DNA from: Myxococcales bacterium
GTDB lineage: Bacteria > Myxococcota > Myxococcia > Myxococcales > Myxococcaceae
Length of the DNA: 64,000 nt
Assembly: GCA_030681895.1 (NCBI GenBank)
Contig: JAUXRI010000300.1
Location: 1-64,000, forward strand
Direction of reading: 5' to 3'
The notes below the pieces were generated by a model. The model ran no database searches. It saw only the letters and a list, made by a program, of their open reading frames with translations, and was not told where the DNA came from. Numbering within the stretch: position 1 is the first letter of the stretch; every line of letters begins with the position of its first letter. Below are positions 2,561-61,888 of this stretch, piece after piece. Position numbers and translations under genes: made by a program.

Positions 2561-2573
2561 TGAAGGCCTCTGC

Positions 2574-4144: not shown

Positions 4145-5161
4145 TCAACTCTCGACCGGCGGCGGCAGCCCTGAGCCGTTGCGCAGCGCGAGGTACAACC
4201 CCGCCTGCACCATGAAGAAGAGCGCGTAGCCGATGGGAATGGCGATCAGCAGGCCCACACACAACGCGAGCATTCCGGCGATGGCGAGCAGCATCACCAC
4301 CATGCCAGCGACGAAGCCGTAGCCGATGGTGGGCAGCCGGTGACCGTGCCCCAGCGCCCAGCCTCGGCGCAGCGCCTCCATCGCGTCGCAGCCGCCGTAC
4401 ACCAGCTCGAACTGCGCGAACGTCAGCGGAATCACCACCCACATCATCGCGACGGTGAGCGCCACGCCGCCAAGCCCGAGGACGATGAACGGCGCTGGTC
4501 CGTTGAAGGCCTCCTTCAAGCCGCCTTCGCTGAAGCTGCCGCCACCCGCGAGGATCGCCACCGCGAACAACAGCCCGAAGCCCGCCATGAGCGGCAACGC
4601 GACGCCGAACCCGATCGCGAGCTGCACCGCCGTGTAGCGCCACACCTTCTTCGCCTGCGTGAACATGCGGGGAATCTCGACCTTGCGACCGAGCAGCGAG
4701 TCGATGCCCACCCGAATGAGTCCCATGATGCCGATGCCCTGCACGATGAGCGTCACGATGAAGCCGACGATGAAGCCGACGACCATCACGATGATGCCGG
4801 GCGCAGGGTTCTTCGCTCCGCCACCGACCAGCATCATCTGGCCGATCACCGAGAACACCTGCATCACGAGCTGGCCGGCGAACGAGAGGCCCATCATCAC
4901 CATGCCTGCGACGCCCAGCATCACGATGTCGCGCCGCCACGCCTCGAACACCGAGTTCCACACGCGAGAGAAGTCGTAGTCCTCACGGCTGTAGGGCCAG
5001 GTGCCGAGCGACTGACGGCAGGCCGGACAGAGCGTGCCGGTGCGCTTGTCGGAGCACGTGGAGCACATGAAGTTGCCGCACCGGGTGCAGACGGTGTCGG
5101 CGGCGACGTCCTGGTGAACGGCACACATCGCCCCTGCAGGCGCTGGTTGTGGCGAAAGCAT
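4145..5161 (-). CDS. B-box-type zinc-finger multi-pass membrane protein
   Basis: The 338-residue protein begins with a soluble zinc-binding region of about 45 residues with Cys/His pairs in CAVHQD, CTRCGNFMC, CSDKR and CPACR. This resembles the B-box or FYVE-like ribbons found at the N-terminus of bacterial membrane proteins. The rest has about five or six hydrophobic helices rich in Gly, Met and Val, with a DUF4013-like look in the second half. A role in membrane-associated sensing or scaffolding is possible but unproven. The start overlaps the upstream end of the divergent gene's longest reading frame. Confidence 0.65.
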   Translation of the reverse strand: MLSPQPAPAGAMCAVHQDVAADTVCTRCGNFMCSTCSDKRTGTLCPACRQSLGTWPYSREDYDFSRVWNSVFEAWRRDIVMLGVAGMVMMGLSFAGQLVMQVFSVIGQMMLVGGGAKNPAPGIIVMVVGFIVGFIVTLIVQGIGIMGLIRVGIDSLLGRKVEIPRMFTQAKKVWRYTAVQLAIGFGVALPLMAGFGLLFAVAILAGGGSFSEGGLKEAFNGPAPFIVLGLGGVALTVAMMWVVIPLTFAQFELVYGGCDAMEALRRGWALGHGHRLPTIGYGFVAGMVVMLLAIAGMLALCVGLLIAIPIGYALFFMVQAGLYLALRNGSGLPPPVES

Positions 5162-5211
5162 GTGAAGACTCCTCCCGAGGTGTTTCGGCCGACGACGCTA
5201 ACCCGCGTGTC

Positions 5212-5751
5212 GTGAGCCACGATGCACATTCGCTTCCACTGACACCCGATGGCGTCCATCGTGTGCACGTGAAGTTCTCCGACGACGACGCCGAGATCCC
5301 CGAGCCGGTGCGCCGCAAACATGCGCTGGCAGAGACCCGGGAGGTGCTCAGGAAGGCGTCCGACACGTACCGGCCGTGGTCCTGCCCCTCGACCGCGGAG
5401 TGCTGCCAGCTGACGAAGACCGGGCGGCCGCCCTGGCTGTGGCCGAGTGAGTGGGCGGTGCTCCTGGAGCGGCTCAAGCGCGACGCACGAGCGCTGCCTC
5501 CGCTGCGGGCCGACGGTGGCTGCCCCTTCCTCGACGCCAGTGGCCTGCGCTGCACCGTCTACGAAGATCGGCCCTTCGGCTGCCGCACGTTCTTCTGTCA
5601 TCGGGTGAGCGGGCCGAGTGCGCAGCCGACCTTCGCGACGAACGACCTGCTCCACCAGCTCGAGGGCGCCAACGTCGAGTGGCAGGAAGACGCGCAGCCG
5701 AAGCCGCTCCCGCAATGGCACGCTGCGGCGCTCGGTGCGTCACGGGGTTGA
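5212..5751 (+). CDS. YkgJ-type cysteine-cluster protein
   Basis: The conserved cysteine pattern of the YkgJ/UPF0153 family is visible: CPSTAECCQ, then GCPFLDASGLRCTVYEDRP, then FGCRTFFC. These cysteines are thought to bind an Fe-S cluster or zinc, and the function of the family is not established. The start is uncertain. The frame is open from 5149, but that would run into the divergent neighbour's start. A GTG at 5212 gives 179 residues, and later GTGs near 5260 are also possible. The PHP lipoprotein gene follows after 32 bp. Confidence 0.7.
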   Translation: MSHDAHSLPLTPDGVHRVHVKFSDDDAEIPEPVRRKHALAETREVLRKASDTYRPWSCPSTAECCQLTKTGRPPWLWPSEWAVLLERLKRDARALPPLRADGGCPFLDASGLRCTVYEDRPFGCRTFFCHRVSGPSAQPTFATNDLLHQLEGANVEWQEDAQPKPLPQWHAAALGASRG

Positions 5752-5783
5752 TGCCTGGTCGCATGCGTGGTCTTCCACCGCCC

Positions 5784-7157
5784 ATGCGTCACGCTTCGTT
5801 CCTGAGCCTCCTGGCCCTCGCCTGCTCCGCGCCGATGAAGATCGAGCCGCCTGCGCCGAAGTGGTCGCCTGGCGTCGTCTACCGCACCGAGCGCGGCCCG
5901 ACGTCACGCGGCTTCCTCGATCGCCGCGGGCTGGTGCACGCGCACTCGGTGTTCTCCCACGACGCCTGTGACGGGCAGCCAATCACCGACGCGGGCGTGC
6001 ACGACCAGGACTGCCTCACCGACTTCCGCCGCGACGTCTGCGCCGCGAAGCAGGACTTCGTCTTCCTCACCGATCACGGCGACAACTTCAGGGACAACGA
6101 GTTTCCCGACGTGCTGCTCTACCGCGCGAACGAAGGCGACTCGCTGCTGAATCACGGCGCTGCGCCCACCGCCAACCGCCTCGCGTGCGCCAACACCGAG
6201 CCCATTCTCATCATGGCCGGCACCGAGACCGCGACGATGCCCGTCGGCCTCGAGAACCACCTGGCCAACCGCGCGCTCTACGGGAGCATGGACGACTCCG
6301 CGATCCGCGCCGCGCAAGACGCCGGCGCCGTCTCGCTGGTGCCGCACACGGAGGACTGGACGCCGGAGCAGCTCGTCTCGATGCCGCTCGATGGCTTCGA
6401 GATGTACAACCTGCACCGCAACAGCCTTCAGAACATCGGCATCGCGGCCGAGCTGGTGTTCGGCAAGGTCGAGATGGGCGACTTCGATGGCCTGCCCCAC
6501 CCTGACGCGTTCTTCACGGCCTTCACCCTCGACGACCCGACGTACTTCGCGACGTGGGGCACCGTGCTCGCGCGTGGCGTGAAGCGCGTCACCACCATGG
6601 GCACCGACTGCCACCGCAACACCTTCCGCCAGAAGCTGCAGGACGGGGAGCGCATCGACAGCTACCGCCGCATGATGAGCATGTTCTCGAACCACCTGCT
6701 GGTGCGGCCCAACGCCGAGGGCTCGTTCGACGATCGATCGCTCAAGGAGGCCCTGCGCGCGCGACGGCTGTACGGCACGTTCGACTTCCTCGGCAGCCCC
6801 GTCGGGTTCGACTTCTTCGCGGCCGAGGGCGCGGTGGTGAAGGAGATCGGTGAGACGGCGCTGATTTCTTCTGGCGCGATCCTCGAAGTGAAGACGCCGC
6901 GGGTACGCGACCTCGACCCGGCCGCTCCTGCGCCGACGATCACCACGAAGCTCTGGGTCGCGAAAGAAGGCGGCTGGGACGAAGTGGCGTCGACGACCGA
7001 GCCGACGCTGCGCTTCACCCCGACGACGCCGGGTGTCTACCGGGCCGAGGTGCGCATCGTGCCAGCGCACCTGAGGCCCTTCATCGGAAAGCGGAACGAC
7101 TTCATTCGCAACGAGCGCCCGTGGGTGCTCTCGAACGCGATCTGGGTCGCTCCGTAG
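5784..7157 (+). CDS. PHP-domain lipoprotein (putative metal-dependent phosphoesterase)
   Basis: Starting at the ATG at 5784 gives a lipoprotein signal, MRHASFLSLLALAC, with Cys14 as the likely lipidated residue; a longer frame upstream lacks a signal. The 457-residue product carries PHP metal-binding motifs: LVHAHSVFSHD near residue 52, FLTDHGDNF near 95, the histidine in LVPHTEDW, and GTDCH near 275. PHP proteins are usually phosphoesterases, and secreted ones with this layout act in the periplasm or at the cell surface. The C-terminal 100 residues look like a beta-sandwich. Substrate unknown. Confidence 0.75.
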   Translation: MRHASFLSLLALACSAPMKIEPPAPKWSPGVVYRTERGPTSRGFLDRRGLVHAHSVFSHDACDGQPITDAGVHDQDCLTDFRRDVCAAKQDFVFLTDHGDNFRDNEFPDVLLYRANEGDSLLNHGAAPTANRLACANTEPILIMAGTETATMPVGLENHLANRALYGSMDDSAIRAAQDAGAVSLVPHTEDWTPEQLVSMPLDGFEMYNLHRNSLQNIGIAAELVFGKVEMGDFDGLPHPDAFFTAFTLDDPTYFATWGTVLARGVKRVTTMGTDCHRNTFRQKLQDGERIDSYRRMMSMFSNHLLVRPNAEGSFDDRSLKEALRARRLYGTFDFLGSPVGFDFFAAEGAVVKEIGETALISSGAILEVKTPRVRDLDPAAPAPTITTKLWVAKEGGWDEVASTTEPTLRFTPTTPGVYRAEVRIVPAHLRPFIGKRNDFIRNERPWVLSNAIWVAP

Positions 7158-33084: not shown

Positions 33085-34467
33085 TCAGCGCTTCGGCTTC
33101 CGCCCCACCACCACGCAGTTCGTCGCCGGCCACGGGACGATCACACCGGCGGTGTCGGTCACCTTCACCGTGCCCTCGTACCGGTTCTTCACGATCCACG
33201 CGTTGCGGGTCTCTTCCAGGTGCATCGGCTCGAAGCCCGCGGCGATCAACGCGGTCTGCCAACCTGAGAGCGTGAGCGGCCCGAACTCCTCGTTCACCTC
33301 GATGTGCCAGTTCTTGAGGTAGTCCTTCTTGCAGATGAACTCGTTCGCGTCGTGCGACGAGAGCTCGACGACGGACTCGGACAAGCGCTTGAACTCGACA
33401 CCCTTGCCGTGGCGGAACTCCTTCGCGAAGCGCACGAACGTGTCGCGCGTCGGCTGATCGAGCAGCTCGAGGCGCCAGGTCGCGGGCTCCGGGCTGACAC
33501 CATCACGAACGAGTACGTGGCCTGCGGGCGCGAGCTCGGTGTGGGCGTTGGCGAGCGCGCGGTCGATCTCGGTGACGCGGTACTCGTTGTACGAGTGCAC
33601 CTCGTGCATCACCGACGAGAAGATGACGGTGCTCGCCGAGCCCGCGGGCACGCAGACGTCGATGACGTTGCCGAACACGAGCGCCACGTCGTCGGTCGCG
33701 TAGGTGTTCTCGTCACACAGCCGCAAGAACTCGCGTGAGAGATCGACGCCCACCAGCTTCGACTCGGGAAACAGGCGCGACAGCTCGACCATCAACTTGC
33801 CCGTCCCGCAGCCCTTGTCGACGATGTTGCCGGGCTTCACCCAACGCACGAGCTCGTCGAGCTTCTGACGCAACGACGCGTCCATCTGGGCGCCGTAGCT
33901 CCCGAAGTCGCGCAGGTGGCCGAGCTCGCCGTCGTCGTTGAGTAACTTCTGGTGAAAGACCGCGCGGAGCCGATCGACGACACCGGGCCGCTGGTACACC
34001 GCGGCCGTCTCGGGTGATGCGTCCTTCAGCCAATCGCGCCCATCGACGATGCGCTGCACCAGCTCGTGCGGCGTCAGGCCCTCGACGGTCTGCGCGACGA
34101 CGGTGAAGCCCTGCGCCTGGAACAATGCGTCGACGTCGCGGTTCGCTGAGTACACCGTCGTCGTCTGCGGAGAGATCGCGCGGCCCGTCTTCTCTTTCAC
34201 GCTCGCAAGCACGTGTTGCACCCACGCGCCCGAATCGGGAATGTCGTCGACGGGCACGAGATCGAACGGCCGCTTGGTGCGCTCCAGCGCCGGCGTGAGC
34301 AGCGCCTTTCGCGCCTCGAGCTCCAGCGGGTTGCGGCGCGTGCCGGCCTGGTTCGCGCTCGTGATGACGCACAGCAGACGATCGATGGGTGCAGTCGAGA
34401 GTGACGCGAGCCACTGCGCCTGGGCCGTCGTCACCGCGTGAAACCGTCCCAGCAGGAGCGCGTCCAT
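33085..34467 (-). CDS. Degenerate NMN-adenylyltransferase-like domain fused to a SAM methyltransferase
   Basis: The ATG at 34467 gives 460 residues. Residues about 1-165 look like the nucleotidyltransferase fold of NadM-type NMN adenylyltransferases (ALLLGRFHAVTTAQAQWL, then TSANQAGTRRNPLELEARKALL, matching the GRFxPxHxGH ... TxRNPxxxxER pattern). The HxGH motif is replaced by TTAQ, and the late ISxTxxR motif is not evident, so adenylyl transfer is doubtful. Residues about 180-400 are a class I methyltransferase with VDKGCGTGKLMVELSRLFP and VGVDLSREFL. The substrate is unknown. An NAD-related ligand for the N-terminal domain is an inference. Confidence 0.65.
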   Translation of the reverse strand: MDALLLGRFHAVTTAQAQWLASLSTAPIDRLLCVITSANQAGTRRNPLELEARKALLTPALERTKRPFDLVPVDDIPDSGAWVQHVLASVKEKTGRAISPQTTTVYSANRDVDALFQAQGFTVVAQTVEGLTPHELVQRIVDGRDWLKDASPETAAVYQRPGVVDRLRAVFHQKLLNDDGELGHLRDFGSYGAQMDASLRQKLDELVRWVKPGNIVDKGCGTGKLMVELSRLFPESKLVGVDLSREFLRLCDENTYATDDVALVFGNVIDVCVPAGSASTVIFSSVMHEVHSYNEYRVTEIDRALANAHTELAPAGHVLVRDGVSPEPATWRLELLDQPTRDTFVRFAKEFRHGKGVEFKRLSESVVELSSHDANEFICKKDYLKNWHIEVNEEFGPLTLSGWQTALIAAGFEPMHLEETRNAWIVKNRYEGTVKVTDTAGVIVPWPATNCVVVGRKPKR

Positions 34468-34575
34468 GGACCGCCAGCGTGGCAAATCGGAGGAAGGACT
34501 GGAAACGCGAAGACAGGAGTGACGGAATCAAGGCGACGCGACACTCACCGTTTCGTGACCGAGCTCGCCCTGCCG

Positions 34576-35091
34576 ATGCGCACTCAACCCCTCGATCTCA
34601 CGACCCTCTACGAGGAGCACGCGCGCCAGGTGTGGCGGTGTCTGGCGCGCCTCGGCGTTCCGCCCGCGTCGGTCGAAGACGCGGTGCAGGAGGTGTTTCT
34701 CACGGCGCACCAGCGGCTTCGCGACTTCGAAGCCCGCTCGGCGCCGTCGACCTGGCTCATCGGCATCGCGGTGAAGGTGGCGGCGAACGCGCGGCGACTG
34801 TCCTCGCGACGCGGGCTCCTGCAGCCGGTGCCGGATTCGATGTCGGCGCGTGGCCCCCGGCCCGATGACGAGCTGGAGCGACGACGAACGTTGTTCGAGC
34901 TCGAGCGGGTGTTGTCGCTGCTGCCCGATGAACAACGCGAGGTCGTCGTGTTGTGCGACCTCGAGCAGCTCTCGGCCGTCGAGGTCTCGGAGGCGCTCAA
35001 AGTGAAGGTGAACACCGTCTATTCGCGGCTGCGTCTGGGCCGCGCCTCGCTGAAGGTCGTGCTCGGTGGACCCGTGAAGGAGCAGTCATGA
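34576..35091 (+). CDS. ECF-type RNA polymerase sigma factor
   Basis: The 171-residue protein has sigma region 2 (LYEEHARQVWRCLARLGVPPASVEDAVQEVFLTAHQRL) and sigma region 4 (VLSLLPDEQREVVVLCDLEQLSAVEVSEALKVKVNTVYSRLRLGR). There is no region 3, as expected for the ECF group. I chose the ATG at 34576; a GTG at 34555 and longer starts are possible. Its stop overlaps the start of the next gene (ATGA), a membrane protein that is the probable anti-sigma partner. The target promoters cannot be read from this window. Confidence 0.85.
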   Translation: MRTQPLDLTTLYEEHARQVWRCLARLGVPPASVEDAVQEVFLTAHQRLRDFEARSAPSTWLIGIAVKVAANARRLSSRRGLLQPVPDSMSARGPRPDDELERRRTLFELERVLSLLPDEQREVVVLCDLEQLSAVEVSEALKVKVNTVYSRLRLGRASLKVVLGGPVKEQS

Positions 35092-37184
35092 GCGACGAGA
35101 ATGAAGGGCCTCCGCCGCTGTCGCCGCAGCTGCACGAGTTCTACGAGGAGCACGCGAAGACCGGCGAGCCGACGCAGGCCGAGCTGGGCCGGGCGTTGCT
35201 GAAGCTCCACGGGGCGACCCGGCCGACGAGGTTCTCGGTGGCTGGGCGACGATTGCTGCCTCCCGAGGTGCTCGCGGTCGCGGCGGTCCTCATCCTGAGC
35301 GTCGGCGGCGCGTTCATCGGCTGGCGGGTGCGGAGCGCGAACGCGCAGACCGCGGCGCTGATCTCGGCGAAGGCGGCGTGGGTGCGAGGCGATCTCGAGG
35401 CTGCGAGCGCGGCGCTCGAGGCGTGCTCGACGGCAGAGTGCGCCCGGCTCGCAGCAGCGGTGAAGCGGGCGAAGGTGCAGAGCGAGAACGTCGGCGCGCT
35501 CGACGAGGCTGAGGCCGGTTCGCTGCTCGCGCTCGATCGGGAGCTCTCCGACGGCGCGCACTCGGTGATCGCCGAGCGGCTCGAGAAGAAATCGGCGCCG
35601 GCCGACAGCGATCGGGTGTTCGCGGAGAGCCAGTTCCCAGTACTCGTGGGCGCGGGGGTTCCCATGCACGTCGTGAGCCTCGCAGTGAGCGACTTCATCC
35701 AGGGGGCCAGAGAAACGTCACCGAGCGTGGCTCAGGCGCTGTTGTCCAACGTCGTGAGGTTGGTGCCTGACACCGAGCTCGCGCGGGCTGCCCAGAAGAA
35801 GCTGGCGGCGCTCGAGGCCGCACCTGCGTCACTCCAGACGGCGCCTGCCCCGCTCACGCCTGAGCTCACCGCACTGCTCGAGCGCGCGAAGGTCGCGAAG
35901 CAGGAGCGCCGCCACGACGAGGCCATTTCGGTGCTCGAGAAGTGCCTGCACGACGTCCCCGATCAGCCGGACTGCCTGGTGAGCCTGGCTTCGACGTTCG
36001 CCACTCGAGGCAACCAGATCAACAACGCCTCCGACAATGCTCGCGCGAGGGAGCTGTACTCGCGCTTCTTGATGGTGGCCGACCCAACCGACAAGCGCAT
36101 CGCGCGGGTCCGCGAGATCTTGTCGCCTCCTGAGCAGCCCCGTCGCCACGAGCCCGACATGGATCCTCTGAACGAGTACCAGGTCACCGATTTCGCCGTC
36201 GCGTCGGAGCTCGGCCGCATCATGGAGCTCGAGAAGACCGACCGCGCCGCAGCGATCCTGGCCTACGAAGAGCTGCTTCGGGTCGCGCCACGCGCGTCGA
36301 TGGCGGGCATCGTCCAGCTGAAACTCAAGGAGTTGGGGTCGAGCGGCTCGCCGCCGAAGTCGCCGGCAGCGGCAGTGACCGAGGCTGCAGCGCTCTACGC
36401 GCGTGGTCTCGCAATCAAGGACACCGACCCTGACGAGGCGCGCGCTCTCTTCGAGGCGGCGATCGCGAGTGCACCGACGAGCATGGAAGCCTCGAAGGCC
36501 ACCGTTCGGGTTCAGCTCCTCGACGATCGGAAGAAGGCCAGCCGAAAGCGTCTGCTCGAGGCGCAGGACACCTACCTTCGCGGCTACCAGCTGAAGGACA
36601 CGAACCCCACGCAGGCGCGCGAGGCGTTCCAGCAGGTGATCGAGCTGGCGCCCGACAGTGTGGAAAGCGCGAAGGCGCAGGCGCGGCTCGACGAGCTGGA
36701 CGAGGCAGAGACGACTCAGCTGATCAAGGCGGCGCCAAAGCCGAGCAAGAACCTCACGCTGACGGCTGGAGAGCGGCGCGTGCTCACCATCAAGGAGCTC
36801 GAGCGCGTCGCCATCGAAGATGCGGCGATCGCCGACATCATCTCGTCAGGAGCCGACGACTTCGAGGTCGTGGGCGTGGGGGCTGGCGTCACCACGATGG
36901 TGACCTGGCACGACGGGAAACAAACGACGTGGCGGGTGACGGTCACGGGCAGCCTCGGCCGCATGGGCCAGCTGAAGATCGCCAGCAACCCCAGCGGAGC
37001 CGACGTCCTCCTCGATGGCAAGAGCACGGGCCGACGAACTCCGGTGACCCCCGCGGAGCCGCTCGAGGTCCCCGTCGGCCGGCACACGATTCAGTTCGAG
37101 TGGAACGAGAAGCGGAGCGCCGTTCAGACGATCGACGTCGTCGAGGGCATGAACCCCGTGATCAGGGGTGACATCCCCCGGTGA
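35088..37184 (+). CDS. Membrane TPR protein with pilus-N-like and PEGA domains, probable anti-sigma partner
   Basis: The 698-residue product has a soluble N-terminus of about 45 residues, which could bind the sigma factor, and one membrane helix near residues 62-80 (EVLAVAAVLILSVGGAFIGW). A long periplasmic part has TPR-like helical repeats (DEAISVLEKCLHDVPDQPDCLVSLA; REAFQQVIELAPDSVESAK). A domain like the CpaC/secretin N-terminal pilus domain follows (LTLTAGERRVLTIKELERVAIED...WRVTV). Last is a PEGA domain (GQLKIASNPSGADVLLDGKSTG). The 4-bp overlap with the sigma gene supports the regulatory pair. Confidence 0.7.
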   Translation: MSDENEGPPPLSPQLHEFYEEHAKTGEPTQAELGRALLKLHGATRPTRFSVAGRRLLPPEVLAVAAVLILSVGGAFIGWRVRSANAQTAALISAKAAWVRGDLEAASAALEACSTAECARLAAAVKRAKVQSENVGALDEAEAGSLLALDRELSDGAHSVIAERLEKKSAPADSDRVFAESQFPVLVGAGVPMHVVSLAVSDFIQGARETSPSVAQALLSNVVRLVPDTELARAAQKKLAALEAAPASLQTAPAPLTPELTALLERAKVAKQERRHDEAISVLEKCLHDVPDQPDCLVSLASTFATRGNQINNASDNARARELYSRFLMVADPTDKRIARVREILSPPEQPRRHEPDMDPLNEYQVTDFAVASELGRIMELEKTDRAAAILAYEELLRVAPRASMAGIVQLKLKELGSSGSPPKSPAAAVTEAAALYARGLAIKDTDPDEARALFEAAIASAPTSMEASKATVRVQLLDDRKKASRKRLLEAQDTYLRGYQLKDTNPTQAREAFQQVIELAPDSVESAKAQARLDELDEAETTQLIKAAPKPSKNLTLTAGERRVLTIKELERVAIEDAAIADIISSGADDFEVVGVGAGVTTMVTWHDGKQTTWRVTVTGSLGRMGQLKIASNPSGADVLLDGKSTGRRTPVTPAEPLEVPVGRHTIQFEWNEKRSAVQTIDVVEGMNPVIRGDIPR

Positions 37185-37191
37185 CGCGATC

Positions 37192-37914
37192 TCAATCGCG
37201 CGCGCGCTTGAACCGATAGACCGCGGCCGGCTTCGACGTGGTGATGCGTTTGCCGGGCGCGAGCTCGAGCCGGCCTTCTTCCAACCACCGGTTGAACGAG
37301 CGGCGGAAGTTGCCCGGGTCCATCGGCTTGCCGAGCACCACGCCGTGCACGTGGCGCAGCTCGGGGATCGTGAAGGTCGCCGGCACGAGATCGAACGCGA
37401 TGTTCGTGTACTCGAGCTTTCCGCGAATGCGCTGCAGTGACATCTCGACGATCTCTTCGTGATCGAAGCCGAGCTTCAGCTTGGGCACCGCGGCCACGTC
37501 GAACCACTCCACGTCCGACACGTCACCGCCGGCCTTCACGAAGGGCGCGAGATCGGGGCGCACCAACGCGTAGTACGCGACCGTGATGACGCGCAGGCGG
37601 GGATCTCGTCCCGCCTTGCCGAACGTGTAGAGCTGTTCGAGGTAGACGCGCTCCGGGTCGAGGCCGGTCTCTTCCTGCAGCTCGCGCCGCGCTGCCTCGT
37701 CGAGATCTTCACCCTGCTCGATGGGCCCTTCGCCGACCCGCACGAAGCCGCCGGGCAACGCCCACTGCCCCTTGAACGGGTGCTCCTTGCGTTTGACGAG
37801 CAGCACCCGCAGCTGAGCGTCGACGATCGTGAGGATCACCAGGTCGACGGCGACGGACGGGCGCGGGTAGTCCTTCGCGCGATAGGCCGTGAGGAACGCC
37901 TTCTCTTCCGACAT
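37192..37914 (-). CDS. nrtR: NrtR-like Nudix transcriptional regulator of NAD metabolism
   Basis: The 240-residue protein has an N-terminal Nudix domain (residues about 18-155) and a C-terminal winged-helix part (FTIPELRHVHGVVLGKPMDPGNFRRSFNRWLEEGRL, then YRF near the end). This is the NrtR/COG4111 layout. The Nudix box can be read as GPIEQGEDLDEAARRELQEETGL, fitting GX5EX7REUXEEXGU, with a short insertion before it. NrtR repressors sense ADP-ribose or NAD derivatives and control NAD genes. Here the neighbours are topA and the TPR gene. The NAD salvage operon at 55.7-61.5 kb is a candidate target. Confidence 0.7.
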   Translation of the reverse strand: MSEEKAFLTAYRAKDYPRPSVAVDLVILTIVDAQLRVLLVKRKEHPFKGQWALPGGFVRVGEGPIEQGEDLDEAARRELQEETGLDPERVYLEQLYTFGKAGRDPRLRVITVAYYALVRPDLAPFVKAGGDVSDVEWFDVAAVPKLKLGFDHEEIVEMSLQRIRGKLEYTNIAFDLVPATFTIPELRHVHGVVLGKPMDPGNFRRSFNRWLEEGRLELAPGKRITTSKPAAVYRFKRARD

Positions 37915-37927
37915 GGCGCGCTCCTCG

Positions 37928-40705
37928 TCAGATGGACTTGCGAGACGCCTTCTTGGCTTCGGGCTTCTTCTTCTTCGGCGCGGTCTTCTTTGCGGGCTTC
38001 GCGGCCTTCTCGGCGACGGCCTTCTTCTTCTCGGGCGGCGCCTTGGCTGCCTTGGCCGCCTTCGGGGCCTTCGCCTTCACCGGCGCGTCGGTCTTCGCAG
38101 CCTTCTCGGCCTTCGCCTTCTGCGCCTTCACCTGCTTCAGCGCCTTCTTGGCGGCCTGCTTCTGGCCTCGCTGGGCGGCGCGCGCCTGGCCTTCGGGCGA
38201 CGCCATGTATTCGCGGCGGGCCGCGATCAGCTCGACCGCGCGCTCGTTCGTCACGTCTTCCGGCGTGTCCCCGCGGCGCAGGGTCGCGTTCGTCTCGCCG
38301 TCCGTCACGTACCAACCAAAGCGCCCCTCCTTGAGGAAGATCTCCTTGGTGCTGACGGGATCGATGCCCTTCGAGATCGACGGCTTGCTCGCCTGCCCGC
38401 GGCCACGGAACTGTTTGGGCTGCGCGAAGATCTCGAGCGCCTCGGCCATGGTGATCGTCAGCAGCCGCGGCTCGGCCTCGACGCCCAGGTTGCGGCTGTC
38501 TTTGCCCTTGGTGAGGTACGGGCCGTAGCGGCCGTTCTGCGCGGTGATCTCTTCGCCGTCATCAGCGGTCCCGAGCACGCGAGGCAGCTGCAGCAGCTCC
38601 AGCGCCTGCGCGAGCGTCACCTCTTCGGGCTTCATCGTCTTGAAGAGCGAGGCCGTCTTCGGCTTCGAGTCGTCGCTGACCTCTCCGAGCTGCACGTAGG
38701 GGCCGAAGCGGCCGGTCTTCACGTACACGTTGAGGTTCGAGACGGGGTCGATGCCGACCGGCGTGTCGCCCTTGGGCGCCGAGAGCAACGCGAGCGCCTT
38801 CTCGACCGTCATCTCGTCGGGAGCGAGCGCATCGGGCACCGAGACGGTGTCTTCACCGCGCTTGAGGTACGGGCCGTAGCGGCCGGGCTTCACGACGATG
38901 GGCACACCAGCTGGGTCGTCACCGATGGGGATCGAGTTCACCGCGGCGGCGTCGATGTTCTCGATGTTCTGAGACACCTGCTTCTTGAGGCCCTGGTGCT
39001 TCTTGTCGCCGTAATAGAACTCCTTCAGGTAGCTCGTCTTCTCGCGCTCCCCGCCGGCGATCTTGTCGAGCTCCTCCTCCATCTCCTTCGTGAACTCGAG
39101 GTCGACGAGATCGAGGAAGTGCTTCTCCATCAACTGCACGACCGCGAACGCTTCCCAATTGGGAATGAGCGCCGAGCCCTTCTTCCAGACGTACTTCGCC
39201 TGGAGCGTGCCGAGGATGCTCGCGTAGGTGGAAGGACGGCCGACGCCGATCTCTTCGAGCTTCTTCACCAGCGAGGCTTCCGTGAAGCGGGCCGGCGGCG
39301 AGGTGGTGTGGCCGAGCGCCTCGAGCGCCGAGACGGGCACCGTGTCTCCCTCTTTCAGGATCGGCAGCGGCGCCTCTTCGTCGTCCCGCTTGTCGTCACG
39401 CTCGTCGGTGCTCTCGACGTACGCCTGCATGTAGCCGCGGAAGGTGATGGTGCGGCCCGACGCGCTGAACTCGATCTTTTCGTTCGCCGTCGAGGTGACT
39501 CCCAGCTTCAGCGACACCGTCTCGCCTTCGGCGTCGGACATCTGGCAGGCGAGCGTTCGCTTCCAGATCAGATCGTAGAGACGCAGCTCAGCCGGAGCGA
39601 GCTCGGCCTTCAGCTCCTCAGGCGTGCGGAACGCTTCACCCGCGGGGCGCACGGCCTCGTGCGCCTCTTGCGCGTTCTTCGTCTTCTTCGCGTACACGCG
39701 GGGCGCCGAGGGGAGGAACTTGTCGCCGAACAGCTCGGCCACCTGCGCGCGGGCGGCTTTGACGGCCGTCTCGGACAGGTTGGTCGAGTCGGTGCGCATG
39801 TACGTGATGTAGCCGCGCTCGTAGAGGCCCTGCGCGACGCGCATCACCTGCTGCGCGCTCATGCCCAGCTTTCGCCCGCCCTCCTGCTGGAGCGTCGACG
39901 TCATGAACGGCGCCTTGGGCGAGCTGCGGTAGGGCCGCTTCTCGGTCGAGCTGACGGTGAACGACTTGCCCTCGATGCGGCTCATCAACCCGCGCGCCTT
40001 CGCCTCGTCGAGCCACGCCACCGTCCCCGTCGGCTTGCCGACCGAGTCGAAGTCACGGCCCTGCGCCACCCGCTGACCGTCGAGGCTGTACACCTGAGAG
40101 TCGAAGCTCGGGTCGGTCGGGTGTTTCGCCGCGAGATCCCAGTAAGACGCCGAGCGGAACGCCATGCGCTCGCGCTCGCGCTCCACGATCAGCCGAATCG
40201 ACGGAGACTGCACGCGGCCCGCCGACAGGCCCGTCTTCACCTTGCGCCAGAGGACGGGAGAGACCTCGTACCCGTAGAGGCGATCGAGCGTGCGGCGCGC
40301 TTCCTGCGCGTCGACGAGCCCCATGTCGATGTCACGCGGGTTCGCGACGGCCTCGGCGATCGCGGTCTTGGTGATCTCGTGGAACACCATGCGGCGGGTC
40401 GGCACCTTCGGCTTCAGCTGCTCCTTGAGGTGCCACGCGATGGCTTCACCTTCGCGGTCTTCGTCCGTCGCCAGGTAGAGCTCCGAGGAGTCCTTCAGGG
40501 CGAGCTTGAGCGAGGCGATGACGTCCTTCTTCGTCACCTCGTAGGTGAGCTTGAAGTCGTTCTCGACGTCCACGCACAGCCCGCTCGACGGCAGGTCCAC
40601 CACGTGGCCCACGCTGGCCATCACCGTGAAGGCGTCCTCCCCGAGGAACTTGGCGATGGTCTTCGCCTTTGCCGGCGATTCGACGATGACGAGCGGCTTC
40701 GACAT
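37928..40705 (-). CDS. topA: DNA topoisomerase I
   Basis: The 925-residue protein begins with the Toprim domain (PLVIVESPAKAKTIAKFLG; DREGEAIAWHL). It has the bacterial type IA active site in RGYITYMRTDSTNLSETA (Tyr of YMRTDS). The C-terminal half has several GPYLKRGEDTVSVP-type TopA C-terminal repeats in place of the zinc fingers of E. coli TopA. The last 100 residues are a very Lys/Ala-rich tail (AKKALKQVKAQKAKAEKAAK), probably for DNA binding. I chose ATG 40705, where the conserved sequence starts. Confidence 0.93.
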   Translation of the reverse strand: MSKPLVIVESPAKAKTIAKFLGEDAFTVMASVGHVVDLPSSGLCVDVENDFKLTYEVTKKDVIASLKLALKDSSELYLATDEDREGEAIAWHLKEQLKPKVPTRRMVFHEITKTAIAEAVANPRDIDMGLVDAQEARRTLDRLYGYEVSPVLWRKVKTGLSAGRVQSPSIRLIVERERERMAFRSASYWDLAAKHPTDPSFDSQVYSLDGQRVAQGRDFDSVGKPTGTVAWLDEAKARGLMSRIEGKSFTVSSTEKRPYRSSPKAPFMTSTLQQEGGRKLGMSAQQVMRVAQGLYERGYITYMRTDSTNLSETAVKAARAQVAELFGDKFLPSAPRVYAKKTKNAQEAHEAVRPAGEAFRTPEELKAELAPAELRLYDLIWKRTLACQMSDAEGETVSLKLGVTSTANEKIEFSASGRTITFRGYMQAYVESTDERDDKRDDEEAPLPILKEGDTVPVSALEALGHTTSPPARFTEASLVKKLEEIGVGRPSTYASILGTLQAKYVWKKGSALIPNWEAFAVVQLMEKHFLDLVDLEFTKEMEEELDKIAGGEREKTSYLKEFYYGDKKHQGLKKQVSQNIENIDAAAVNSIPIGDDPAGVPIVVKPGRYGPYLKRGEDTVSVPDALAPDEMTVEKALALLSAPKGDTPVGIDPVSNLNVYVKTGRFGPYVQLGEVSDDSKPKTASLFKTMKPEEVTLAQALELLQLPRVLGTADDGEEITAQNGRYGPYLTKGKDSRNLGVEAEPRLLTITMAEALEIFAQPKQFRGRGQASKPSISKGIDPVSTKEIFLKEGRFGWYVTDGETNATLRRGDTPEDVTNERAVELIAARREYMASPEGQARAAQRGQKQAAKKALKQVKAQKAKAEKAAKTDAPVKAKAPKAAKAAKAPPEKKKAVAEKAAKPAKKTAPKKKKPEAKKASRKSI

Positions 40706-40711
40706 TCCGCA

Positions 40712-40741
40712 CCGGTAGCGTGCGGAGTAGCAGCGCGTCAA
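40712..40741 (-). promoter_or_regulatory. Weak promoter candidate just before topA
   Basis: On the minus strand TTGACG (40736-40741) and TACCGG (40712-40717) are 18 bp apart. The -10 match is poor. If used, transcription would begin at or next to the topA ATG at 40705, giving a leaderless or nearly leaderless mRNA. Confidence 0.25.
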
Positions 40742-55741: not shown

Positions 55742-56533
55742 TCAGGGCGTGAAGAAGCCCGCGTTCACGCCAGGAGCGACCTTCCCCTGGCTCGCGCGAA
55801 TGGCCGACTTCGAGACGAGCTGGAACGTCTTGCGAAGGCCCGACGGCGTCGCGTCGCGCTGCACGTGCACGCACCCGGCCGGCACGCCCATCGCCGCCGC
55901 GATCAGCTCGAACTGGGTGTCTTTGCCCACGCCGACGAAAGCGAGCGTGAAGAGCTCGCTGGCCAGCAGATCCTTCGACAGCTTCGCGCAGGTGGGGCTG
56001 GTGCGGGTGCTGCCGACGTCTTCGCCATCAGTGACGACGACGACGACGCTCCGGGTGGGCGTGCCGCCGTCACGCAGCCGCTGGGCGTAGGCGACGTTGG
56101 CGGTCAGCGCGTCACACCAGGTGTCGTAGAGCCGCGTCGCACCGCCCGCGCGGTAGTTCTTCGCGTCGAGGCGCGTCGAGTCTTCCACCGGCACGTACGA
56201 GTGCAGCACCTTCTGATCGCCGTTGAAGGTCCACAGCGCGAGCAGCACCGAGTCCTTCTCCTTCGCGCCACCGAACGCGTCGAGCAGCGCGTTCTGCCCG
56301 TCACGCACGGCCTGCTCGAGGCCGCGATCAGCGATCGAGCCGCTCGCGTCGATGAGCAGCGTCACCAGCGTCACGTCACTCGCGGTGATGTCTTCGAGCG
56401 CCTTGCCCGCGGCGCCGGCGAGCACGATGCCACCGAGGTTGCCGGTGATGAGGGTGGAGGTCTGCGCGCTCAGGACGCCGGTCGCGACCGCGCTGGTGAG
56501 GTTCTTCGTCACGTCATCGTCGTTGCTGGACAT
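55742..56533 (-). CDS. TerY-like von Willebrand factor A (vWA) protein
   Basis: The 263-residue protein is a single vWA domain with an intact MIDAS: LLIDASGSIAD (DxSxS), the Thr of AGGATRLYDT, and the Asp of VVTDGEDVGS. The N-terminal 55 residues are a small Gly/Thr-rich lead. The fold and size fit TerY/YegL, the vWA member of the TerY-P triad, which works with a PP2C phosphatase and a Ser/Thr kinase. Both partners are encoded just upstream in the same operon. The residues needed for metal binding are present, so ligand binding through Mg is expected. Confidence 0.8.
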   Translation of the reverse strand: MSSNDDDVTKNLTSAVATGVLSAQTSTLITGNLGGIVLAGAAGKALEDITASDVTLVTLLIDASGSIADRGLEQAVRDGQNALLDAFGGAKEKDSVLLALWTFNGDQKVLHSYVPVEDSTRLDAKNYRAGGATRLYDTWCDALTANVAYAQRLRDGGTPTRSVVVVVTDGEDVGSTRTSPTCAKLSKDLLASELFTLAFVGVGKDTQFELIAAAMGVPAGCVHVQRDATPSGLRKTFQLVSKSAIRASQGKVAPGVNAGFFTP

Positions 56534-57597: not shown

Positions 57598-59382
57598 TCA
57601 CGACAACGACAGCTGCACCAACTCCTTCGACGTGACGACGACGAGGCTCCCGTCGGACTGCGGGAGGAGCTCGTCTTGAGCGCTCACGAATGGCTGGGTG
57701 TCGGCGAAGCACGCGGCTTCGACCAGCACGCCTGAGTCGAGCTTCATCGCGAGCAGCCCGTCATCGGAGCCGATCACCACACGGCCGCCGAGCAGCGCGG
57801 CGTGACCGCTGCGACCGCCGACGCTCGTGCCGACCACCGCGCCGTCTTCCGAGATGAGCCAGCGATGCACGACGTCTTTGCCGTTCACTTCGGCGGTGAC
57901 GCTCAAGAGCCCGTGCCGCGCATCGAACACCGCGTCGGCGGAGATCACCCTGCCCGTCCACCGGATGCCTGAGAGCTGCTTCACGCCCGCGCGGCCGCTG
58001 CGCAGCAGGAAGGCCACCGTGACGCCGCCTGCCCGATAGAAACCCAGGCCGAGGCGCTCCCCGGTCCACAACCAGGTCTGGCCTTCGAGCACCTGCCCGA
58101 CACGCGTCCCGGTGCCCTGCTCGATCAACCACTCGTTCTCGGTGCGGTAGGTGACGGCGGTCGCGGTCGCGAAGGTCGGCTCCGAGGCACGGACGCCGGT
58201 CTGCGCGCGCTCGACGAGTTTGCCGTGTTCATGACGCTCCATCGCGCCGCGTGACGACACCACCCAGGTCGACGCGCCGGCGAGCCCGATGCGCTCCTGC
58301 GGGAGCAAGGGCCGATTGAGCACCACCGCACCGTCTTCACGTCGCACGACGCCCTGCTCTTCGAAGACGTACTTCACGCCGCCTTGCATCGACGCCGCGA
58401 GCACCCGCCCACTCGTCTCGAAGAGGATCTTCGCGGTGCAGCGGCCCTTCACGCGAACGGCAGGCTTCGTCGCGAGCGGACCCAGCGCATGACACGTCGG
58501 ACAGACCGGCCGCGCATGCGTGACCCCGCACGAGCACGTCGACCACGACTGCTGGAGCACGCGCTTCGTCGGCGCCTCGCGCACGTCCTTCTCGAACGTC
58601 TGCGAGAACCAGTGGAGCGCGTCGTCGGACAACGTCTTCCACGAGGCAGCGACGCGCGGGAGCACGACGTCGTCCTTCATCACCGGGTGCCGCGCCTCGG
58701 CGCGCCGGAGCATCGTGCTCAACTTCGCGTGTGTTCCGCCGAACGGATGCACGTACAGCAGCGACGAGAACAGCATCACCGCGAACGCGTACCAGTCGGT
58801 GCCTTCGTCGAAGCGCGGGCTGTTCGAGAGGTCGACGCCGTAGAGGCGCGGGTCGAGGAACCGCTCGTGCCCGACGGCGCAGGACAAGCCCGAGAACTGC
58901 ATCGAGTCGGCGTCGATGAGGAACACCCGCTGGGAGCCGGGCTGCACAAGCACGTTGCCATCGTTCAGATCGCCGACGATGACCTGGTGTGCGTGGAGCG
59001 ACTGCACCGTCTGCTCCAACTCGCGGAACATCGTCATCACGACGTCGTTCGAGATCGTGTTCTCGCGGAACTTGCGCTGCGCCAGCCGGCCCGCGTCCTC
59101 GACGTCCGACAGCGCCTGCATCACGAAGCCGATCACATCACCGCGCTGATCCTTCACGAGCTCGAGCGGTCCGAGCACGTTGGCAGGCAAGGCCTTCGGA
59201 AAGAGCGCGAGCTTCTCGAGCTTCACTGCGCGCACCCGGGCCTCTGCAGCGTTCGCCGGATCGACGGGATGGAAGACCTTCACCGCGCGATCCCTCCAGC
59301 GAAAGACGCGCGCCTCGCCGCCTTCACCGAGCAGGTCGCTGTCCTTCAGGCGCACGCGCGTGTTGGCGACGTAGACGTCCAT
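57598..59382 (-). CDS. YegI/TerY-P-type Ser/Thr kinase with zinc ribbon and C-terminal propeller-like domain
   Basis: The 594-residue protein has a divergent kinase domain (residues about 12-275). The nucleotide loop is LGEGGEARVF, Lys35 is in RAVKVFHP, the catalytic loop is VGDLNDGNVL with Asp138 and Asn143, and DAD (Asp157) stands at the DFG position. This GDLN...DADS form is typical of TerY-P kinases. Next comes a zinc ribbon, CSCGVTHARPVCPTC (Cys283, 285, 294, 297). The last 290 residues are beta-rich and repeat-like, suggesting a propeller. The PP2C gene is 2 bp upstream. Confidence 0.8.
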   Translation of the reverse strand: MDVYVANTRVRLKDSDLLGEGGEARVFRWRDRAVKVFHPVDPANAAEARVRAVKLEKLALFPKALPANVLGPLELVKDQRGDVIGFVMQALSDVEDAGRLAQRKFRENTISNDVVMTMFRELEQTVQSLHAHQVIVGDLNDGNVLVQPGSQRVFLIDADSMQFSGLSCAVGHERFLDPRLYGVDLSNSPRFDEGTDWYAFAVMLFSSLLYVHPFGGTHAKLSTMLRRAEARHPVMKDDVVLPRVAASWKTLSDDALHWFSQTFEKDVREAPTKRVLQQSWSTCSCGVTHARPVCPTCHALGPLATKPAVRVKGRCTAKILFETSGRVLAASMQGGVKYVFEEQGVVRREDGAVVLNRPLLPQERIGLAGASTWVVSSRGAMERHEHGKLVERAQTGVRASEPTFATATAVTYRTENEWLIEQGTGTRVGQVLEGQTWLWTGERLGLGFYRAGGVTVAFLLRSGRAGVKQLSGIRWTGRVISADAVFDARHGLLSVTAEVNGKDVVHRWLISEDGAVVGTSVGGRSGHAALLGGRVVIGSDDGLLAMKLDSGVLVEAACFADTQPFVSAQDELLPQSDGSLVVVTSKELVQLSLS

Positions 59383-59384
59383 GG

Positions 59385-60101
59385 CTACAGCTCCCGCGTG
59401 TCGAGGACGGCGAGGGTGGTGTCGTCGGTGAAGCGCTCCGTTTCGTTGAGCACGTTGAGGCGCCGCTGCAGGTGCACAGGGTTGGTCCAGACGTGCGGCT
59501 CGTCGAGCAACGCGCGCAGTCCATCGGGAGCACGCGAGAGCCAGCCGTCGACGCCATCGGTCGCGAGCGCCACCCGCCGCGCTGGTCCCAGGTGATGCAC
59601 GCGCGCGGGCACCGACTTCCCCGTGAGCCGATAACCCACGTACGCCGGCGCGTTGTCGTCGCCTGAGTCGAGCCGGGTCAGCTGCCCGTCGACGAAGACC
59701 GCGCCATCACCCGAGCCGAACACCACGCACTCCGGGCCCCGCTGCACGGCGCACAAGACGGTGAACAACCCGTACTGCTCGAGCACCGCCGTCGCGTCGT
59801 CGACCTCGACCGAACGCACGAGGCGGTCGAGCCACGAGGTGAGGTGCTCCATCGCGACCGTGGGGAGTTCAGGCAACGCAACGTGCTCGAGCGCCACCGT
59901 CATCATCGCCAGCGCACGCGCACCGAGCCGGGCGCCGACCTCCGAGAAGGGCTGGCTCGAGCAGCCATCCGTCACCACCGCCACCGTCGTCTCACCGCGA
60001 GAGGAGACGAAGACGCCGTCCTGGTTGTTGCGGCCGAGGCGCACGTGCTCTCGCCCGATCAGGCTCGCGGTCCGCGTGGTCGTGTGGTGACGGGAACTCA
60101 T
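59385..60101 (-). CDS. PP2C-type phosphatase of a TerY-P triad
   Basis: The 238-residue protein has the PP2C core: RNNQDGVFV with a metal-binding Asp, VVTDGCSS, VVFGSGDGAVFV, VALATDGVDGWL and FTDDTTLAVL. The key metal-binding Asp residues are in place, so activity is expected. Proteins of this kind remove phosphate from partners of the cognate kinase (compare E. coli YegK). The ATG overlaps the upstream nicotinate phosphoribosyltransferase stop by 4 bp, and the kinase starts 2 bp downstream, so all three must be coexpressed. Confidence 0.85.
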   Translation of the reverse strand: MSSRHHTTTRTASLIGREHVRLGRNNQDGVFVSSRGETTVAVVTDGCSSQPFSEVGARLGARALAMMTVALEHVALPELPTVAMEHLTSWLDRLVRSVEVDDATAVLEQYGLFTVLCAVQRGPECVVFGSGDGAVFVDGQLTRLDSGDDNAPAYVGYRLTGKSVPARVHHLGPARRVALATDGVDGWLSRAPDGLRALLDEPHVWTNPVHLQRRLNVLNETERFTDDTTLAVLDTREL

Positions 60102-61537
60102 CCAAACGCCTCTTTCTTCAAGCGGGTGACGAGGGCCTCGGTGGCCGGAGAGTGGACGAGGCGCAGGTCCTCCGCGCGAACGGACTTCGCCTCGGCCAGA
60201 GCGGGCGACGACGATGCAGGTGCTCCGGTGAGCAGCTCGTAGCCCTCGGCGACGGCCTCACCTTCCTGGGCGACGACGCCGAATGGGCCGCTGGCCCCCG
60301 CGCGCCGCCGCCACAGCACCGGCTTTCCGGGAACGCTCTGCTTGCCGCTGCCCGCCTCGTTCCCGAACTTCATGCAGGCCCGTTTCCCGGTCTGCGTCAG
60401 CTTGTAGACGGCCGACACGCGATCTCTCGTCAGCGGAGAGCCCGCGGTCTGCGCGACGATGAAGCCGCCGTACCCGTACACCTGCTCCTCGGGCGTCCAC
60501 CCGACCTCTTTGCGGAGCTCTTCGAAGCGCTTCGTCAGCGCGGTGTCGAAGCCGTCCTCCAGGATCTGCACGGGGCGAATGCCCATCTCGTCGGCGAGCT
60601 TCGCGGCGAAGCGGTACTGCGCTTCTTTGTCGCCGGAGTCGTAGCGAATGGAGTCGTGCTTCCCGCCGCGCTCCTTGATGATCGCGTACGCCGCCGGAAT
60701 GCCGCTCTGGATGGTGTCGAAGGTGTCGAGGAGGAAGCTGGAGCGATTCGAGCGGCGCTCCACCATCGCGCGGAAGGCCGCGTCGTCGGAGCCGAAGCGC
60801 TGCACGTGTTCGTGCCCCATGGTGCCGACAGGAATGAGGCCCTTCACGCGCGCGCCGTACACGTGGCTGGTGCGGGTCAGCCCTGCCGCCTTGCACCCCT
60901 CGAGCGCTAACAGGTGCTGCTCGACGCAGGTCGCCGCGCGGAGCCCGACCTCGAAGAGGCGGTCGGCAGTCCCCGTCACCTCGGCGAGCTCCTTCACTCT
61001 CGCCGTGACGCGCGCCACGTACGCCTCGGACGCGACGGTGATCGGCGGGGCCTTCACGCCCACCGCGTCGAGCGTCTCGAGCACGATGCGCTTCTGCTCC
61101 TCACACGTCACCGTGCCGACCGCCGCTGCCAGCTCGTCGGGCCGCAGCAGCGCCACCGTCGCGACCTGCACGCGGTAGCTCCACATCAACACCAGCGGCT
61201 CGAGCCACGAGACGACCGCCGACGGCCCGGTGATGCAGAGGATCGGCTCGCGGTCATGGAAGACGGCGTTCTTCGGCAGCGCGTGGATCCGCACCTGGCT
61301 GATGAGCGCCATCGCCGCCTTGAACCCCGCGCTCATCTCGTAGTCGTGCTTCGCCAGGAACTCCCAGTCGCCCGCTTCGGGCACCGGCAACACCTCGCGC
61401 ACCAGCTTCTCGACGTCGAAGGGCAGCACCTGCAACCCGCCCTTGCGGTGCGACGCGTAGAACGTCTCTTCCCGCAGCGGCCAACCCGCCTCCGCCATCG
61501 AGAACTTGTAGCCGTCCGTCACCAGCAACCCAGCCAT
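60098..61537 (-). CDS. pncB: Nicotinate phosphoribosyltransferase
   Basis: The ATG at 61537 gives 479 residues. The enzyme joins nicotinate and PRPP to make nicotinate mononucleotide in NAD salvage. Typical segments are the N-terminal LLVTDGYKFSMAEAGWPLREETFYASHR, a His in GTMGHEHVQRFG, and the PRPP-site stretch LLDTFDTIQSGIPAAYAI. A YDSGDKEAQYRFAAKL helix and VYGYGGFIV follow. The longer start at 61573 lies upstream of a good promoter, so 61537 is preferred. It is the first gene of the operon that carries the TerY-P triad and a nicotinamidase-like gene. Confidence 0.88.
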   Translation of the reverse strand: MAGLLVTDGYKFSMAEAGWPLREETFYASHRKGGLQVLPFDVEKLVREVLPVPEAGDWEFLAKHDYEMSAGFKAAMALISQVRIHALPKNAVFHDREPILCITGPSAVVSWLEPLVLMWSYRVQVATVALLRPDELAAAVGTVTCEEQKRIVLETLDAVGVKAPPITVASEAYVARVTARVKELAEVTGTADRLFEVGLRAATCVEQHLLALEGCKAAGLTRTSHVYGARVKGLIPVGTMGHEHVQRFGSDDAAFRAMVERRSNRSSFLLDTFDTIQSGIPAAYAIIKERGGKHDSIRYDSGDKEAQYRFAAKLADEMGIRPVQILEDGFDTALTKRFEELRKEVGWTPEEQVYGYGGFIVAQTAGSPLTRDRVSAVYKLTQTGKRACMKFGNEAGSGKQSVPGKPVLWRRRAGASGPFGVVAQEGEAVAEGYELLTGAPASSSPALAEAKSVRAEDLRLVHSPATEALVTRLKKEAFG

Positions 61538-61555
61538 GGCTGACCTCACGAGAGA

Positions 61556-61584
61556 GTTATAGACACCAAACAAAGAGTCGTCAA
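61556..61584 (-). promoter_or_regulatory. Sigma-70-type promoter of the NAD salvage / TerY-P operon
   Basis: On the minus strand TTGACG (61579-61584) and TATAAC (61556-61561) are exactly 17 bp apart, a near-consensus housekeeping promoter. Transcription would start about 12 bp before the ATG at 61537, with GAGG as ribosome binding site. A repeated TGTCT occurs just upstream of the -35 box and inside the spacer, a possible operator. Confidence 0.65.
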
Positions 61585-61588
61585 GACA

Positions 61589-61888
61589 CTATCTTCAGTG
61601 GAACATTTGAGAGCAAATGCAGAAGCGATAACAACGGCTTAAGATGTCACACGAAGTCCTGCACACTGGCGCGATCTGTCCGACCGGAAACAATTAGTTT
61701 TGATTTACGACACATAAGAACTGATGCGCATCGATTTTGGCTGCGTATTGAATTGATCTTCGTGCTGTTTCGCCGCGCTCCGTAATCCTTCGTGACATGC
61801 GTGGAGCGCCCAGTCGCAACGGCTCGAACCCCTGGTGCGATGATGTAGGCACACGGCGCCACTGCGGCGCACCAAAGGGGAGAACGAC
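61589..61888. other. Divergent intergenic region, unusually A+T-rich
   Basis: The gap between the NAD salvage operon and the second ECF sigma gene is clearly richer in A and T than the surrounding coding DNA, especially 61560-61770. Beyond the promoter at 61556-61584 I see no gene and no clear second promoter for the sigma gene. The sigma gene has a good ribosome site (GGGGAG) just before its ATG. Confidence 0.5.

Follow-up and report, generated by a model that had tools for sequence, protein, structure and literature searches.

In NadR, a nicotinamide mononucleotide (NMN) adenylyltransferase (NMNAT) domain reports the status of nicotinamide adenine dinucleotide (NAD), and is carried together with a DNA-binding domain and a kinase. 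Other closely related systems include NadM, the archaeal-type NMN adenylyltransferase (PDB ID: 1EJ2), bifunctional NadM-Nudix proteins (PRK05379), in which an active adenylyltransferase is joined to a Nudix partner (PMC9503650), and the NrtR regulon of Mycobacterium smegmatis (PMC6800001). Here we describe a gene, designated NadM*-MT, which fuses a NadM-like domain with an altered active site to a class I S-adenosylmethionine (SAM) methyltransferase. It lies in a 64,000-nucleotide stretch of a Myxococcales bacterium (assembly GCA_030681895.1, contig JAUXRI010000300.1, positions 1 to 64,000 of the forward strand), hereafter the window. Our preferred reading, to which we give slightly less than even chances, is that the fusion is a SAM-dependent methyltransferase that a pyridine nucleotide either controls or brings to its target.

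The fusion shares with NadM its whole-domain fold and the equivalents of R11, R47, W87 and N105, but differs in carrying TxxQ in place of HxGH, in the loss of R136, in family scores below cut-off and in its methyltransferase partner. Similarly, it resembles the NadM-Nudix proteins in joining an NMNAT-type domain to a second enzyme domain (a weak N-terminal match to PRK05379, E 5.2e-5), with a methyltransferase replacing the Nudix partner. The NMNAT domain is also common to NadR, whose DNA-binding domain and kinase give way here to the methyltransferase; when the fusion was scanned against Pfam and NCBIfam, neither a helix-turn-helix nor a kinase domain was found, and hence no NadR architecture. 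Likenesses to the M. smegmatis regulon comprise a regulator of Nudix and winged-helix domains, an operator candidate of 8-N7-8 geometry and the putative turning of an enzyme domain into a ligand sensor, while the predicted targets differ, being a nicotinate phosphoribosyltransferase (NAPRTase) gene and a kinase/phosphatase/vWA cluster. Literature searches, which covered open-licence papers, returned no description that we recognised of an NMNAT-methyltransferase fusion. Within that literature, both the pairing of a pyridine-nucleotide-enzyme fold with a methyltransferase and the GRxHxxTxxQ site appear to be unreported; reuse of an NAD-enzyme domain as a sensor is already known from NrtR (Nudix).

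Fold, distribution and altered active site

The open reading frame (ORF) of the fusion, read from 34467 to 33085, is genuine and conserved. Its N-terminus is similar to NCBIfam families PRK01153 (E 3.4e-12, residues 2-174; 46.3 bits against a cut-off of 127) and TIGR01527 (E 3.3e-9; 36.5 against 181.2 bits), and matches 1M8J both by phmmer (2e-7) and in a comparison of the family profile with PDB sequences (3.5e-15). An AlphaFold2 model built from 33 aligned homologues has a mean predicted local distance difference test score (pLDDT) of 85.6 and a predicted TM-score (pTM) of 0.66, with a low-confidence linker at residues 172-193. In this model the N-terminal domain (residues 2-171) superposes on 1EJ2 with bound NAD at Z 19.7 and 1.9 Å over 161 residues (27% identity), and residues 190-455 adopt a class I SAM methyltransferase fold. 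The methyltransferase half exceeds the Pfam cut-offs for Methyltransf_25 (40.9 against 27 bits) and Methyltransf_11 (35.5 against 21.2 bits), and SAM motif I is intact, with D217, K218, G219, C220, G221, T222 and G223 invariant among the 33 rows of alignment A2. The nearest named family for residues 190-454 is PRK06922 (E 1.3e-19; E 5.2e-31 for homologue L062), of which the C-terminal part of the model alone was matched, at 70 bits for the window protein and up to 108 bits against a cut-off of 602. Because all three NCBIfam matches lie well under their curated cut-offs, the fusion is considered a relative of PRK01153, TIGR01527 and PRK06922 and not a member of them.

A scan of 84,980 species identified 33 related loci. 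The majority (24) come from metagenome-assembled genomes titled Myxococcaceae, Archangium, Myxococcales, Deltaproteobacteria and similar, and eight are from Melainabacteria/Obscuribacterales, including one titled Cyanobacteria bacterium SZAS LIN-3. One further locus, labelled “Proteobacteria” (L068), encodes the methyltransferase without the NadM-like domain; at positions 2463-6505 of this locus the homologue overlaps a 1067-aa kinase-like gene by 4 bases. Among 40 relatives, 14 carry the fusion, all within one family (13 whole and one split across two contigs). When 195 Myxococcota genomes were searched with profile A2 at 1e-18, 38 matched, of which 25 possess the NadM-like part (23 close, with G064 and G053 distant) and 13 the methyltransferase part only; in the phylum of G044, 4 of 292 sampled genomes match. 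Also identified was a Nudix domain (PF00293, 64.3 bits) fused to a related methyltransferase (L123 of G197, 3009-6191), with a long C-terminal part free of Pfam matches. The similarly built L126 (G060), one of two proteins scanned among the 13 with the methyltransferase only, showed no second Pfam domain, and on this result a by-eye claim of two Nudix-like domains in the G012 and G016 homologues was withdrawn.

To define the altered site, the window protein was aligned with 30 of the 33 loci (alignment A4, 31 sequences). Not included were L043, which has an in-frame stop, L060, truncated by a contig end, and L068; a G005 homologue with an in-frame TGA was kept out of alignments A1, A2, A3 and A4. 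Where 1EJ2 has GRMQPFHRGH the fusion reads GRFHAVTTAQ, which places T13 opposite H16, A15 opposite G18 and Q16 opposite H19. Thr replaces H16 and Gln replaces H19 in all 31 homologues, and R136, the catalytic Arg of the second motif, is never Arg (Val in 20, Leu in 8, His in 2 and Ile in 1). Conversely, R11, R47, W87 and N105 are each kept in 31/31. Titles of solved structures cite mutants of R11, H19 and R136; the other 1EJ2 residues we take to have substrate-binding roles. Three distant homologues (L122, L124 and L125) likewise keep R11 and have Thr and Gln in place of H16 and H19.

As far as sequence can tell, this pattern fits a domain that may bind nucleotide without adenylyl transfer. 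AMP transfer would have been lost because both ATP-handling residues are gone (H19 to Gln, and R136), whereas binding of a pyridine mono- or dinucleotide, be it nicotinate mononucleotide (NaMN), NMN, nicotinate adenine dinucleotide (NaAD) or NAD, has probably been retained. Binding can outlast the loss of catalysis, given that substitutions of the HxGH His residues of a related enzyme, FAD synthetase, had a minor effect on affinity for flavin mononucleotide (PMC3509593).

The protein would instead be bifunctional if adenylyl transfer were still carried out by the N-terminal domain at its unusual TxxQ site. This we regard as very improbable: a first-position Thr is allowed by the motif of the nucleotidyltransferase superfamily, T/HXGH, the Gln is invariant in the 31 and in the three distant homologues, and NaMN is made by neighbouring genes, but R136 is replaced throughout, H19A in Escherichia coli NadD leaves 0.62% activity (both the motif and this value from PMC1249556), and 23 of 25 genomes have a canonical NadD that scores above cut-off. 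In the remaining two (G018 and G042) all NadD matches are sub-threshold, and a true NadM over cut-off was found in none of the 25. Given this distribution of NadD, the fusion is not needed as an adenylyltransferase for NAD, and a role as the genome's only such enzyme was ruled out.

The ratio of nonsynonymous to synonymous substitution rates (dN/dS) of the NadM-like domain was 0.14, 0.29, 0.32 and 0.33 against L038, L039, L040 and L041, respectively. By this measure the domain is under purifying selection, and the altered site is constrained and not decaying; a decaying pseudogene was ruled out by these four ratios together with the invariant Thr and Gln.

A first-pass annotation of the window had read the gene as a NadM-like nucleotidyltransferase fold, its HxGH motif lost (TTAQ), fused to a SAM methyltransferase. 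The fold is borne out by the superposition on 1EJ2, made with the structure prediction and NMNAT comparison proposed there, and by the PRK01153, TIGR01527 and 1M8J matches; the methyltransferase partner is confirmed by the Pfam cut-offs passed. The claim of motif loss holds for Gly to Ala and His to Gln, which are real departures, but not for the first Thr, an allowed variant. Alignment A4 is also compatible with its picture of a catalytically dead NMN/NAD-binding domain, in that adenylyltransferase catalytic residues are lost and mononucleotide-site residues kept; the losses include R136, on which the annotation was silent, as it was on the strand of the gene.

NAD salvage genes in the neighbourhood

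The NrtR-family regulator of the window exceeds the Pfam cut-offs for both of its domains (PF00293 NUDIX, 82.8 against 21.1 bits; PF21906 NrtR_WHD, 44.5 against 27 bits), and its Nudix signature, read from the translation, is formally intact. The best NCBIfam match, NF050029, reaches 175.4 bits against a cut-off of 400, which weakens the exact NCBIfam label only. Since an extracytoplasmic function (ECF) sigma factor gene and a TPR/PEGA gene intervene on the opposite strand (Table 1), nrtR and the fusion do not form one operon in the window. Because this pair is found there in only some close relatives and is absent in others, it is a late insertion and not part of the system. Across the 33 loci, 20 have a co-directional NrtR gene within 3 kb of the fusion; in L053 (= L032) one base belongs to both the stop codon of nrtR and the start codon of the fusion gene, and 11-12 bases separate the two genes in L045, L050 and L052. 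NrtR was absent from the flanks of L055, L058, L068 and the eight Melainabacteria loci, and L051 and L060 end too near to judge.

A second arrangement was found in L059 and L070, where the fusion is followed in order by NrtR (approximately 40% identical to that of the window), nicotinamidase (PncA) and nicotinate phosphoribosyltransferase (PncB), with several of the genes overlapping. The L059 stretch stops within the phosphoribosyltransferase gene, and the L070 operon additionally includes an NAD synthase (NadE) of 634 aa (PRK13981, E 2.8e-95, below cut-off). In both loci, genes for an MNIO bufferin maturase (BufB) and an HvfC-like protein are located directly upstream of the NAD operon (family scan for L059).

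A second NAD operon of the window, at 55.7-61.5 kb, begins with a gene matching the NAPRTase family TIGR01513 (E 1.2e-35, below cut-off); the family scan favours this assignment, and nicotinamide phosphoribosyltransferase (NAMPT) was set aside as its identity. The cysteine hydrolase encoded in this operon has no match in Pfam, NCBIfam or PDB sequences, and 17 homologues of it are 59-99% identical; profile comparison with nicotinamidase gave 89.8%, and the two are probably similar, to judge from the profiles. PADLOC matches were weak and generic (mad2, 1e-9), and a defence system was rejected.

The tie between this operon and the fusion is most direct in G015 (L034, L057), in which genes for NAPRTase, PP2C phosphatase, kinase, cysteine hydrolase, vWA protein, NrtR and the fusion are contiguous and run in one direction. 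More broadly, the PP2C and kinase genes follow NAPRTase in each of the 15 fusion-bearing genomes of the family (the window counted), and both hydrolase and vWA genes are present in 11 of these, the other four being cut by a contig end or the end of the stretch. In G042, where the fusion is on another contig, a nicotinamidase gene is near the PP2C-kinase-hydrolase-vWA-NrtR run. Conversely, in the seven family genomes with NAPRTase and hydrolase genes and without the fusion, the PP2C, kinase and vWA genes are not beside them (the G009 contig ends 0.8 kb past the hydrolase), and NrtR follows NAPRTase/hydrolase directly in three. A 37-39% identical kinase is nonetheless found elsewhere in six of these seven, and in the five of these Myxococcaceae that were fetched it belongs to a second, diverged NrtR-PP2C-kinase-hydrolase-vWA cluster (L131-L135), which rules out a kinase cluster exclusive to fusion genomes.

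These arrangements bear on the remaining proposals of the first-pass annotation. The NrtR-like Nudix regulator predicted less than 3 kb from the fusion is present at 2.7 kb, and the link to NAD, put forward there as an inference, gains support from NrtR in 20/33 loci, from the operons with PncA, PncB and NadE, and from the joint gene run of G015. The phyletic comparison it proposed with the 55.7-61.5 kb operon came out mixed: the NAPRTase-PP2C-kinase core accompanies the fusion in every fusion genome of the family, but NAPRTase/hydrolase genes and the diverged kinase cluster occur without it.

The same operons lend some weight to the chief rival explanation, namely that the methyl acceptor is itself a pyridine compound (nicotinamide, nicotinate, NaMN or NMN), with the NadM-like domain holding substrate or providing feedback and with excess precursor being drained or marked. 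We consider this unlikely, though a serious contender. The co-occurrence of nicotinamidase and NAPRTase genes speaks for it, as do the strongly conserved pocket region of the methyltransferase (ANEFxxKKDYxxNW, NxWIxxxRY) and the methyltransferase relative fused to a Nudix domain, likewise nucleotide-handling. However, no known pyridine methyltransferase is among the Pfam, NCBIfam and PDB matches.

In 15 of 22 upstream regions a palindrome, AGAGT-N7-ACTCT, with at most two mismatches in its 10 arm positions (at most one in 11 regions), precedes the start of the NAPRTase ORF by 15-25 bases; its core is visible by eye in G001, G002 and G005, and it was not found upstream of NAPRTase in G009, G019, G020 and G022. 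The 17-base form has one match in the window against 0.21 expected, while a looser form occurs twice against 7.8 expected; as the latter is no commoner than chance, the evidence lies in position and conservation, not number. An extended version in L089, GAAAGAGT-N7-ACTCTTTC, has the 8-N7-8 geometry of the M. smegmatis NrtR operator, GTTTTCGA-N7-TCGAAAAC (PMC6800001). On these grounds the palindrome before the NAPRTase operon is a candidate NrtR operator.

Table 1. Coordinates of the fusion, its domains and associated features in the window
Feature	Position	Strand	Remarks
NadM-like/methyltransferase fusion gene	33085..34467	minus	460 aa; stop codon within coordinates
NadM-like N-terminal domain, residues 1-171	33955..34467	minus	altered motif GRFHAVTTAQ, residues 7-16; V137 replaces NadM R136
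Class I SAM methyltransferase, C-terminal, residues 181-460	33088..33927	minus	motif I VDKGCGTG, residues 216-223
ECF sigma factor between nrtR and fusion	34573..35091	plus	there in some close relatives only
TPR/PEGA/pilus-N protein between nrtR and fusion	35085..37184	plus	there in some close relatives only
NrtR-family regulator (Nudix and NrtR winged helix), 240 aa	37192..37914	minus	Pfam; adjoins fusion in relatives
topA	37928..40741	minus	13 bases before nrtR; nrtR neighbour in most Myxococcaceae homologues
vWA-domain protein, second NAD operon	55742..56533	minus	Pfam, relatives
Cysteine-hydrolase-like protein, 322 aa	56607..57575	minus	distantly nicotinamidase-like
Kinase-like protein Kin594, second NAD operon	57598..59382	minus	Pfam, relatives
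PP2C-type phosphatase, second NAD operon	59385..60101	minus	Pfam, relatives
NAPRTase-family gene, first of second NAD operon	60098..61573	minus	also heads joint operon in G015
Candidate NrtR operator AGTGTCTTGACGACTCT	61574..61590	minus	just upstream of NAPRTase ORF; sole window match

A possible coupling of pyridine-nucleotide salvage to methylation

Under nucleotide control of the methyltransferase, the fusion would serve an NrtR-governed salvage of vitamin B3, leading from nicotinamide through nicotinate and NaMN to NAD, in a system that would often include the kinase, PP2C phosphatase and vWA protein. Occupancy of the NadM-like domain by nucleotide might then signal to the methyltransferase that salvage is running, and the methyl target could be a component of the salvage system or a pyridine compound itself. 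A more specific and doubtful version of this proposal is that the fusion founds an NAD-coupled methylation circuit, in which the stably refitted GRxHxxTxxQ domain, once an NMN adenylyltransferase, gates a dedicated methyltransferase. Its target would be either a protein of the linked kinase/phosphatase/vWA module or a pyridine nucleotide, the latter giving a methylated product hitherto unknown.

Several observations weigh against nucleotide-controlled methylation tied to NAD salvage. The PRK06922 match is far under cut-off, and the stated function of that family is merely “methyltransferase”. In the distant homologues L122, L124 and L125, W87 is replaced by Phe and N105 by Thr in all three, and R47 is kept in one. 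Also, the window holds no candidate NrtR operator copy before the fusion, and genes of the NAD panel were not found in the fetched Melainabacteria flanks, which were searched for NrtR at all eight loci and for the wider panel at five of them.

These Melainabacteria loci would also suit a third rival, in which RNA or another macromolecule is modified, the NAD neighbourhood is incidental and the NadM fold is a mere binding scaffold. Structural comparison of the methyltransferase half is compatible with it, in that rRNA/tRNA methyltransferases (Bud23, METTL6) rank among small-molecule enzymes at similar Z; for this reason the methyl acceptor is not readable from the structure ranks. However, two differing layouts of NAD operon with distinct NrtR proteins are unlikely to have arisen by accident, and we judge modification of a macromolecule improbable.

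NAD status and SAM-dependent methylation represent two central currencies of the cell. If our preferred reading of a methyltransferase under pyridine-nucleotide control is true, the presence of the fusion in vitamin B3 salvage operons would constitute a direct wire between NAD supply and methylation, and the reuse of NAD enzymes as sensors would have occurred repeatedly, with Nudix in NrtR and an NMNAT here. A testable role would thereby be gained for hitherto uncharacterised proteins of myxobacteria and Melainabacteria.

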